Origin: Kribbella qitaiheensis
Lineage (GTDB): Bacteria; Actinomycetota; Actinomycetes; Propionibacteriales; Kribbellaceae
Direction of reading: 5' to 3'
NCBI RefSeq assembly: GCF_014217565.1
Contig: NZ_CP043661.1
Location: 992,001 to 1,056,000 of the forward strand
Length of the DNA stretch: 64,000 nucleotides
A program made the translations under genes and the position numbers. Numbering within the stretch: the stretch's first letter is position 1; every line of letters starts with the position of its first letter. Below the pieces are notes generated by a model. It did not search any database, was not told the DNA's origin, and saw only the letters and a program-made list of their open reading frames with translations. Shown one piece after another: positions 5,930 to 57,998 of the stretch.

Positions 5930-6880
5930 ATGCGAGCGGATCGGCTGGTTGCGACGTTGTTGCTGATGCAGTCGCGGGGGCGGGTGACGGCGGGTGAGTT
6001 GGCCAGGGAGCTGGAGATTTCCGTGGCCACGGCGCGGCGGGATCTCGAGGCGTTGTCGACTGCCGGGATTCCCGTTTATCCACAGCCGGGCCGCAACGGC
6101 GGATGGTCGTTGCTGGGTGGGGCGCGGACGGATTTGAGCGGGTTGAGTGCGACCGAGGCTCAGGCATTGTTCCTGCTGGTCGGGCCTGCTGCGGCTGTCG
6201 CGCCTGAGGCGAAGGCCGCGCTGCGGAAGTTGGTGCGGGCGCTGCCTGACACGTTCCGCGCGGATGCCGAGGCGGCGGCCGAAGCCGTCGTGATCGATCC
6301 GGCGCGGTGGGGTGAGCACATCAAGGAGCGGCCCGAGATGGTCCGGCGGCTTCAAGAGGCCGTCGTACGGCGGGTGAAAGTGCGACTCACGTACGCCGGG
6401 CGCGGTCGCACCGGGTCGGAGCGATTGGTCGATCCGCTCGGGCTCGTGGACAAGGACGACATCTGGTACCTGATCGCCGGTACCGAGAAGGGGCAGCGCA
6501 CCTTCCGGGTGGAGCGGATCACCGATACGGAGCTGACGGATCTGCCCGCGGAACGCCCGGCCGACTTCGATCTGGCGACGGCCTGGGCGCGCGTTGTCGA
6601 GGAGATGGAGCAGAACCGGTCCCTGCTGACGGCGACGGTCCTGATGCAGGAGCGGTTCCTGTGGGTGATGCAGGATCGTCTCGGCAGGCACTGCGAAGTG
6701 ATCGGCCCGGTGGGCGACGGGCGGGTCAAGATCGAGGTCACTGCTCCTACTCCCCTGATGATCGCCCAGCACCTGGCCGGTTGGGGCGGTCAGCTCGAGG
6801 TGCTCGAGCCTCCGTCGGTCCAGGCGGAACTGGTTCGCCTCGGCCAGGAACTGGTCGACCGCTATCGAAGCGATTCTTGA
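5930..6880 (+). CDS. WYL-domain transcriptional regulator (DeoR-type HTH, YafY/PafC-like)
   Basis: The 316-residue protein opens with a winged helix-turn-helix (LLLMQSRGRVTAGELARELE) and the VYPQPGRNGGW wing typical of the group. A WYL domain (ligand or nucleic-acid sensing, Sm-like fold) spans about 135-215, with the DIWYLIAG strand and RTFRVERI motif. A WCX-type C-terminal segment follows. It probably acts as a dimeric DNA-binding regulator in the cytoplasm. The ATG follows GGAGG. It is divergent from the aldo/keto reductase, which it might control, though that promoter looks MerR-like. Confidence 0.85.
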   Translation: MRADRLVATLLLMQSRGRVTAGELARELEISVATARRDLEALSTAGIPVYPQPGRNGGWSLLGGARTDLSGLSATEAQALFLLVGPAAAVAPEAKAALRKLVRALPDTFRADAEAAAEAVVIDPARWGEHIKERPEMVRRLQEAVVRRVKVRLTYAGRGRTGSERLVDPLGLVDKDDIWYLIAGTEKGQRTFRVERITDTELTDLPAERPADFDLATAWARVVEEMEQNRSLLTATVLMQERFLWVMQDRLGRHCEVIGPVGDGRVKIEVTAPTPLMIAQHLAGWGGQLEVLEPPSVQAELVRLGQELVDRYRSDS

Positions 6881-55299: not shown

Positions 55300-55914
55300 C
55301 TACCTGCTGGTCGCGGACGACAGGGCCGCCGCGAAGTCGAGCACCTGCTGGATCCCTGCCGGGCCGTCAGCCGCAGCACTGATCCGCAGCGAGATGTCGT
55401 CTGCCGCGACCGAACCCGTGTAGCCGTGGTCCGCCTCGCAGTTGGGGTCGGCGCAGACAGCCGGCTCGAGGTCGATCCGGTTCACCATGCCCCAGCCGAT
55501 GGTCAGCACCACCTCGCCGCCGGCCGAGCCGGGATCCGATCGGACCGACGCGTAGCCGGCCGGATTCGGCACGACCCGGTTGACCACGACCGCGTTCACC
55601 CGGTTCAGCGGGATCGCCTCGGTCGAGGTGGACGCGTACGGCGCCTGGATCAGGTCGTCGGCGGCGTGCTCGTCGGTATGCCCGACGATCAGCCGGCTCG
55701 GGGTCAGCGCCAGGATGGTGATGTGCCGCCGCACCTCGTCGCGGTCGAACGTCGGTTCGTGCTGCAGCACGTACGCCCGGATCGGTTCTTCGGCGATCGC
55801 CACTGCGAGCGAGTCCGCCACGACATCTGGGTAGTAGCCGCACCGGTCGATCGCGTCGCGCAGTTCACGCGAGGCGTCCGAGAGCTCCGGGACCGGCGCA
55901 TTCAGGTCACGCAT
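55300..55914 (-). CDS. DUF5998-family protein
   Basis: The 204-residue protein begins MRDLNAPVPELSDASRELRD, contains AIDRCGYYPDVVADSLAVAI and ends with a conserved VCADPNCEADHGYTGSVAAD segment with two Cys, as in the actinobacterial DUF5998 family. No function is known for this family. Start ATG 55914; a longer frame upstream runs into the 31-bp inverted repeat and is rejected. It forms an operon with the phosphodiesterase gene, a common actinobacterial pairing. Confidence 0.75.
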   Translation of the reverse strand: MRDLNAPVPELSDASRELRDAIDRCGYYPDVVADSLAVAIAEEPIRAYVLQHEPTFDRDEVRRHITILALTPSRLIVGHTDEHAADDLIQAPYASTSTEAIPLNRVNAVVVNRVVPNPAGYASVRSDPGSAGGEVVLTIGWGMVNRIDLEPAVCADPNCEADHGYTGSVAADDISLRISAAADGPAGIQQVLDFAAALSSATSR

Positions 55915-55974
55915 GCCCTCATCCTCGCACGCCAGCGCCACGACCCCGGACCACCCTGTGGACGATCCCACCCA

Positions 55975-56074
55975 CCTCCTGTGATCATTCGCCCCCTTTT
56001 CACCCTCCGTGGACAGCGGGTATCGGCTTGGGTTATCCACAGGGGGTGAAAAGGGGGCGAATGATCACAGGAGG
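55975..56074. repeat. 31-bp perfect inverted repeat around a DnaA-box-like core
   Basis: 55975-56005 (starting CCTCCTGTGATCATTC, ending TTTTCACCC) is exactly reverse-complementary to 56044-56074, with a 38-bp centre. The right arm begins 1 bp past the permease stop. The centre contains GTGGA...TCCAC and a perfect DnaA box TTATCCACA at 56033-56041. It could be a very strong terminator or a mobile palindromic element. Confidence 0.75.
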
Positions 56075-56075
56075 G

Positions 56076-57998
56076 TTAGCCGGCGCTGGCCTTTCGTAGT
56101 ACGGGAGCGCCGGCGGCGCCGGCCACGGCGACCAGGACCAGCCCGACGACCACCTGGCCGGACAGCAGGAGCAGCCCGGAGTTCCCCTGGGTGAGCGGAT
56201 GACCGCCGCTGAACACCAGCCCGCAGAAGGCGCCGAAGCCGACCACCGGTAGCCCGACCCCGACCACCGGTACGACGGCCGCGAGGCGGGCCGACCGCTC
56301 GATGACCTTCAGCGGTACGCCGGATCGCCGCAACGCCTTGGCGGGAGCCGCCTGGTCCAGCGCCGTCCCGACCGCGCCGGCCGCTGTGGATGCGGCCCCG
56401 GTGATGAAGACGAGACCGAGCAGGAGAGCGACCCCGAGGCGCAGGTCGAGCAGCATCCCGGCCTCGTGTTCGTCCTTTTCCGCGTCCGTCAGCGGCACGA
56501 CATCCGGGACCACGTCGTACAGGACCGTGCGTACCTTCTCCCGATCGGCGACACCCGGTACGACGATGGTCACCGACTGAGCCTGCGAGGTCACCTCGCC
56601 CTTGATCCCGGCCTCGGCGAGCTTCGCCCTCGCGTCATTGACGACGGCAACGGTCTGGCCCTGATCCGGATACAGGTGAAATGCGGTGTCGGTCCCGTCA
56701 CCGGACAGGCCGTACGGCATGAACAGAGCAAGGAAGCCGGTGACGAATCCGCTCAGCACCAAGGCGGCGACCGGACGGAACGCACCCTTCGGGTCATCGG
56801 CGAGCCGCCGCCCGGCGAGCAGTACCACCGGGCCTTTCGCCGTACGAGCCAGGAGCTTGCCGATCACCTGGACTGCCCACGGACCGACGATCCGTACGGC
56901 GAGCGCGGCCATCCCGACGCCGATCACGATCGGGAGCAGGGCTCCCCCAGTGCCGAGGATGCCGAGCATGACCGGGCCGATCACCAGCAGCCCGAGACGC
57001 AGCGCGCTCGTCGCCTTGCGGGTCTGCCCGCGGACGACGCCGAGCGGCGTGATGCTGACTCGGCCCAGCCCGATCATGGCGCTGATCACCGACAGGACAG
57101 GCACCGCGACCAGCACGACGAGGACGACCCACCAGCTCACCGTCAGATCGTGCAGGTACCAGTGACCGCCACCGATCGGGATCCGGGCGATCAGCGGACT
57201 GAGCACCGTGTAGCCGATCAGACCCGCGACAGCGCCGGCGAAGCCGATCACGGCCTGCTCGACCGCGCTCAACCGGAGCACCTGACCTCTGGTCGCACCA
57301 GCCAGCCGGAGTGCGGCGAGCCGACGCTCCCTGCGTTTCGCGGCCACTCCGGCTGCCTGGCCGACCAGGCTGAGCAGCGGGAAGAGGACCAGTGCGACGC
57401 CGAAGGCGACGAGTGCGAGCAGGATCGCGATCCGCTCGGGCAGGTCGCTGCCATGCCAGTTCGCCAGGTACTTCGGGTGGTACTTCGCAGTGAGGCCGGG
57501 CAGCTGCGGGGAGGCGCCCCGGATGATCACCAGCTCGTCCGGCGAGGACAGCCCGGCCGACGAGATCTCCCCGGTCGGCCTGGCGAGCCCGAACCGCTTG
57601 CTCAGGTCGCTCGAAGCGTCGCTCGACCAGAGCTTGGCGACGGCCGGCGAAACGAAGACCTCGCCCGGCTTCGGGGTGTGCGGGAGTCCCGGCGGCGGTG
57701 CGAGTTGGGCATTTCGCTGCTCATTGGTGACGGCGAGGTCGTACCGCAGTACGGGCTTGCCGTTCACCAGGTCCTTGACCTCGTGGATCACGCCGACCGC
57801 CGTCTTCGCATCCGCGTCATCGCTGGTGCGCCAGCCGATCCGGTCTGCCCGGTGGGTCAGACCGAGGGTTCCGGCGATCAGGAAGGTGACCAGCATCGCG
57901 ACGACCGCGGTCGCACCCAACGCCGCGAGATTGGCCGCGCGGCCGCCGGGCCCTGGGCGGCGGACGAAACGCAGCCCGAGATCGGTCATCGGATTCAT
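56076..57998 (-). CDS. ABC transporter permease (FtsX/MacB type)
   Basis: The 640-residue membrane protein has about ten helices arranged as two FtsX-like units: the first after a large extracytoplasmic loop (~60-190) with AILLALVAFGVALVLFPLLS, the second near the C-terminus (LLLGLVFITGAASTAAGAVG, GVGLPVVGFGAFCGLVFSG). It acts with the ATPase encoded just upstream (ATGA overlap) to export lipids, peptides or antibiotics. A 31-bp inverted repeat directly follows the stop. Confidence 0.85.
   Translation of the reverse strand: MNPMTDLGLRFVRRPGPGGRAANLAALGATAVVAMLVTFLIAGTLGLTHRADRIGWRTSDDADAKTAVGVIHEVKDLVNGKPVLRYDLAVTNEQRNAQLAPPPGLPHTPKPGEVFVSPAVAKLWSSDASSDLSKRFGLARPTGEISSAGLSSPDELVIIRGASPQLPGLTAKYHPKYLANWHGSDLPERIAILLALVAFGVALVLFPLLSLVGQAAGVAAKRRERRLAALRLAGATRGQVLRLSAVEQAVIGFAGAVAGLIGYTVLSPLIARIPIGGGHWYLHDLTVSWWVVLVVLVAVPVLSVISAMIGLGRVSITPLGVVRGQTRKATSALRLGLLVIGPVMLGILGTGGALLPIVIGVGMAALAVRIVGPWAVQVIGKLLARTAKGPVVLLAGRRLADDPKGAFRPVAALVLSGFVTGFLALFMPYGLSGDGTDTAFHLYPDQGQTVAVVNDARAKLAEAGIKGEVTSQAQSVTIVVPGVADREKVRTVLYDVVPDVVPLTDAEKDEHEAGMLLDLRLGVALLLGLVFITGAASTAAGAVGTALDQAAPAKALRRSGVPLKVIERSARLAAVVPVVGVGLPVVGFGAFCGLVFSGGHPLTQGNSGLLLLSGQVVVGLVLVAVAGAAGAPVLRKASAG

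Follow-up and report, generated by a model that had tools for sequence, protein, structure and literature searches.

What a long and perfect palindrome is doing directly behind a stop codon, and whether it is a terminator, a DnaA-binding site or a mobile repeat, is the question raised by a locus in a 64,000-nucleotide stretch of the Kribbella qitaiheensis genome, here called the window. An inverted-repeat search of the window recovered what the sequence-only reading had described, a mismatch-free inverted repeat with a left arm of 31 bp at 55975-56005 (plus strand), its exact reverse complement at 56044-56074 (minus strand) and a centre of 38 nt. This is the longest perfect inverted repeat of the window, 20 dinucleotide shuffles of which reached 11-15 bp, and the arms extend to 39 nt when two mismatches are allowed. 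Folded as minus-strand RNA, the element reaches -87.2 kcal/mol, against -42.5 ± 4.0 kcal/mol in shuffles (z = -11). The arms carry a conserved 19-nt core, CATTCGCCCCCTTTTCACC, at 55986-56004 and 56045-56063, and these two cores enclose a 40-nt spacer (56005-56044). Both motifs reported from the centre, the DnaA-box-like TTATCCACA (56033-56041, plus strand) and a GTGGA/TCCAC dyad, are present. The setting is a tandem gap on the minus strand, between the gene of an FtsX-type ABC permease (PF02687; 57998-56076), whose stop codon at 56078-56076 is separated from the hairpin by 1 base, and the gene of a DUF5998 protein (PF19461; 55300-55914). The element is larger than its perfect arms, the family outer part CCCACCCA taking the left side to approximately 55967. 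From the family consensus and the empty site in the relatives G008 and G025, the whole is placed at 55967-56074 (~108 bp), its left end defined by the outer family sequence CCCACCCACCTCCTG and its right end by the upstream gene's stop codon. Very probably we are dealing with a mobile palindromic repeat, ~100 bp long and non-autonomous, from a family whose copies multiply in the genomes of Kribbella soil bacteria and whose arms evolve in concert.

The search of the genome and its relatives for further copies of the arm, proposed at the outset, found dozens in the relatives. The window genome itself (8.16 Mb, one contig) harbours one intact copy and one decayed, longer element at 4224249-4224438, so that activity in this genome is no more than a possibility. 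In Kribbella catacumbae (G027) the distinct copies number at least 63, and one to several are present in each of four other Kribbella. With at most one mismatch, an 18-nt core matched 74 + 68 times in G027, 4 + 3 times in G024, 2 + 1 times in the window genome and nowhere in the other 35 genomes of the genus, while a reversed control pattern had no match in the genus; nor did the core match outside the genus in the 391 genomes of the order scanned. A looser core pattern brings in G031 as a further carrier. A covariance model built from 38 copies gave matches at E ≤ 1e-6 in six of 38 Kribbella genomes, namely G000 (the window genome), G020, G024, G027, G028 and G031, and, among 147 sampled genomes of the order, a single weak match (G130) outside the genus. 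Weak matches in G019 (L405, L407) and G015 (L408), with E 6e-5 to 5e-3, are long palindromes that look like another family; those of G019 are of the type GGGGTTCACC...TTGCCC(C/G)TTCACC. Across 84,980 named species, the two-arm pattern was found solely in K. catacumbae DSM 19601 (G027), with 34 copies in 33 stretches. Rfam contained no match to the window element at gathering score, and weaker matches, to microRNA precursor families and others, merely reflect the long hairpin. An origin from a phage or plasmid was rejected, as a 121-base region had no match in phages or plasmids; 70 stretches of viral sequence carried one arm each and none carried two, which was taken as chance. No published description of the family was found in the open-access PMC literature, a coverage that excludes most subscription papers.

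The copies share an architecture rather than a full sequence. Among 66 distinct copies, a set in which identical copies at different places are counted once, the core-to-core spacer measures 38-41 nt in 62 and 5, 18, 19 or 32 nt in the remaining four, and its sequence differs widely. The arms, for their part, change together. An alignment of 38 copies (A1), whose core appears more invariant than it truly is because 34 were picked by exact core, has changes on both sides in 14 of 35 pairs (102 cells), and its covariation score is reached by 0 of 500 shuffles; sliding the partner arm reduces pairing from 93% of cells to 47-55%. A wider set of 77 copies, drawn from six genomes and excluding a model match in G028 at 4279906, was anchored on CATTCG before counting, which makes these six bases almost invariant by design; with copies of more than four arm mismatches left out of the count, arm changes were symmetric in 124 cases vs 44 one-sided. 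Counted against this result are 54 of the 124 symmetric changes, which lie at the two positions separating a GATC from a GTTC class and may represent few events; the rest still amount to 70 vs 39. In the eight outer bases of the G027 copies, the match with the arm's own partner is 73%, vs 59% expected (permutation within class; 0 of 2000 as high). Cores are also species-specific, with CATTCGCCCCCTTTTCACC in K. catacumbae, CATTCGTCRCCTTTTCACC in G031, CATTCGTCGCATTCCGCCC or similar in G028 and CATTCGGTCCTTTTCACC in G020, and in the last three both arms are altered together in most copies.

Comparison of genomes lends good support to mobility, as judged from aligned sites. The suggestion of a mobile palindrome lying directly behind a stop codon is supported by the recurrence of the arms in relatives and by the window site itself, where the element is present in one of 30 syntenic gaps and absent from 29, which points to a recent insertion downstream of the FtsX-type permease gene. 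In G008 and G025, the nearest relatives, the stop codon is followed by ~20 other bases before the common TCGTCCACAGGG. One K. catacumbae copy lies in frame inside a glycosyltransferase gene that has no copy in G036, G024 and G031, with a net gain of 90 bp and ~12 bases replaced, and a second, shorter in-gene copy, at L180, likewise keeps the reading frame, here of a gene for a membrane protein. By eye, the L073 copy cuts an ordinary terminator hairpin retained in G004, G024 and G036; at L081, L083, L085 and L097, K. catacumbae has the element alone where one or more relatives show an ordinary hairpin, and at L069, L086, L090 and L092, no such hairpin was seen in the relatives compared. A tenth locus, L084, for which the query matched one flank only, is outside this comparison. 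Most mobile elements of ~100 bp leave a target duplication; by eye, none was seen at the window site, in the glycosyltransferase gene, at L073 or at the other compared sites. Insertion into pre-existing palindromes was considered as the source of the copy-specific outer arms; it fits L073 and fails for the glycosyltransferase copy. Two further sites deserve description. One convergent site is occupied by a copy both in G024 (L231:1304-1395) and in K. catacumbae (L081:626-710). The spacers of these two are less alike (likeness score 3) than either is to other copies (16), which tends to favour two independent insertions over a single old one, although this is not proved. Where K. catacumbae has the L083 copy, the same flanking genes in G024 enclose a different long palindrome, with arms around GGAGAAGCGGCCTCGATG (L270; G024:C1:3473500-3474400).

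The copies also show a preference for gene 3′ ends. Of 73 copies, a count in which one place (L087:370 = L415) is entered twice, 29 lie between convergent genes, 28 between tandem and seven between divergent genes, four overlap a predicted gene and five have a gene on one side only; single cases are uncertain because genes were called by a simple codon-usage script. The background in the K. catacumbae loci and the window is 167 tandem, 52 convergent and 49 divergent gene pairs. Tandem copies are closer to the stop in 25 of 28 cases (binomial p 3e-5), the distance being at most 40 nt in 22. A role at gene 3′ ends is suggested by this positioning, with the seven divergent copies and the two inside genes counted against it. 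Such a preference, together with the occupation of places where relatives have terminators, would also be expected if the window feature were a plain intrinsic terminator of the permease gene whose arms are long by chance, and the very stable fold that begins 1 nt behind the stop codon is what such a terminator would offer. Against this stands the absence of a U-tract behind the stem: at 55800-56200, no T-run terminator-like site (0) and no sigma-70-like promoter were found, and a T-rich tract follows only two of 132 family ends. A terminator of one gene would moreover be hard to reconcile with arms repeated dozens of times in relatives, with seven of 64 two-gene-flanked copies between divergent genes and two inside genes, and with 29 of 30 syntenic genomes that do without the element. 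The plain terminator had been tied to single-copy, unconserved arms, and across the genus the arms are not unique, nor do they lack conservation; we regard this explanation as highly unlikely. Still more improbable, to the point of being barely credible, is a DnaA-binding or titration site, a proposal prompted by the TTATCCACA in the centre of the element. The motif occurs twice in the window, where 0.05 is expected, the other occurrence being at 6076-6084, and two other copies contain a box too. A DnaA-like box (TTATCCACA or TTGTCCACA) is thus present in just three of 66 spacers, the unconserved part of the element, and in the window copy it is single; conserved or clustered boxes, which titration would call for, were not found among these spacers. 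Separately from the element, in genomes that do not have it, 16 of the 30 syntenic gaps contain TTGTCCACA or TTATCCACA within the 110 bases that precede the DUF5998 gene. TCCACA is found in these 110 bases in 23 of 30 Kribbella (window 55915-55965). The titration proposal was not supported, and the motif inside the palindrome is judged incidental.

Two alternatives accept mobility and differ in how it is brought about. Were the element a classical MITE of a DDE-type insertion sequence, its arms would be terminal inverted repeats, and it does have such repeats on a short non-coding body. The same arms also bound longer non-coding elements of ~215-230 bp (L213:1470-1688, L224:1057-1277) and ~290-310 bp (L178:274-564, L221:1094-1404), with other conserved interiors, and this fits a MITE because it is expected of deletion derivatives of a larger transposon; the longer elements are possibly parents or relatives of the short form. 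Outer arms that vary from copy to copy speak against a MITE, as does the target duplication missing, by eye, from the resolved sites (the window site, the glycosyltransferase gene and L073), and no transposase gene lies between the arms in the loci read. Beside single arms, where a transposase was likewise looked for, lie genes for FAD-binding, MFS, racemase-like, HHH, DUF222/HNH, condensation and TPR proteins. An 85-aa integrase-core fragment occurs at a contig end, by L217. We consider the MITE explanation doubtful, yet a good deal less so than a true REPIN, in which a doublet of REP units is moved by a RAYT (Y1 tyrosine transposase). REPINs are described as two conserved inverted units around a less conserved spacer of characteristic length, with compensatory changes (PMC3116915), an architecture matched here by a variable spacer of set length and co-varying arms. 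However, PF01797 (Y1 transposase) is absent from G000, G020, G024, G027 and G028 and present only in G031 of the 38 genomes, although the same search was positive in five of 14 control genomes. A RAYT is therefore ruled out as the mover for most carriers, since one of six carrier genomes has the domain. By eye, moreover, the arm CATTCGCCCCCTTTTCACC is not itself a palindrome: it has no internal stem and neither a GTAG (in A1) nor a CGTC tag. A true REPIN is improbable on these grounds.

The non-autonomous palindromic repeat that we favour resembles several known systems without coinciding with any. Like the REPINs of Pseudomonas (PMC3116915), it consists of two inverted units at a set distance, with compensatory changes, and is extragenic and present in many copies per genome. 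It is unlike them in that five of the six Kribbella carriers have no RAYT gene, the arms do not form single palindromes tagged with GTAG, the host is an actinomycete and the arm length is greater (a perfect 31 bp in the window copy); the family is REPIN-like in architecture, yet lacks two of the three REPIN features examined. REP elements of the GTAG and CGTC superfamilies occur downstream of genes, between convergent or unidirectional genes and in some cases inside genes, according to PMC3733652, the same kinds of places as the Kribbella copies, whereas they are single tagged palindromes of 20-40 bp and the Kribbella unit is an untagged palindrome of ~100 bases. The main text of that paper makes no mention of Kribbella, Streptomyces, Mycobacterium or ‘actinobacteri’. 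Rickettsia palindromic elements, as presented in a review (PMC10969869), are palindromic repeats able to sit in frame inside genes, as two Kribbella copies do; compared by description only, they differ from a family with dozens of copies between genes. The same review describes MITEs and the pneumococcal SPRITE, RUP and BOX elements as short, non-autonomous, terminator-like and nested, with terminal inverted repeats. The Kribbella family shares the short non-autonomous form, the inverted ends, the likeness to terminators and the nesting, and departs from them in its lack of an observed target duplication and of a partner insertion sequence in the loci read. Elements bounded by the family's arms are larger still at L226 and L228, where other DNA lies inside, and nesting is seen at L228. 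The insert in L228 (L228:734-923, G027:C17) belongs to a second palindromic family of ~190-200 bp with ends near CTAGTACTACAGCCGGAGTTCGTGATGTT, which has many copies in G027, G024 and G036; this placement of one palindromic element in another indicates that several palindromic families coexist and nest. A relic of the second family lies at G000:C1:1893390-1893494.

Dispersed copies, empty sites in relatives, co-varying arms, a fixed spacer length and the preference for gene 3′ ends together carry the reading as a mobile palindromic repeat. The spread of such copies would be the work of an enzyme that recognizes the sequence or the hairpin and acts in trans; the window copy is a recent arrival. 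Once inserted behind a gene, the transcribed hairpin may act as a 3′-end structure, either stabilizing the RNA or serving as a weak, U-tract-free terminator, and could thus stand in for terminators that have been lost. Populations of REPIN-like sequences are mostly known in company with a RAYT partner. As a speculative proposal, Kribbella might keep populations of REPIN-like palindromes without RAYTs, by means of a machinery of the host or of an element that would recognize the hairpin, insert it at gene 3′ ends and in terminator loops, where a few target bases would be lost and none duplicated, and co-evolve with the species-specific core (CATTCGCCCCCTTTTCACC, CATTCGTCRCCTTTTCACC, CATTCGTCGCATTCCGCCC), the elements then replacing ordinary terminators. 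A REPIN architecture for which most carriers have no RAYT raises the question of which other machinery is able to copy hairpins, and the turnover of terminators can be tested directly at orthologous sites where relatives have an ordinary terminator and one species the repeat.
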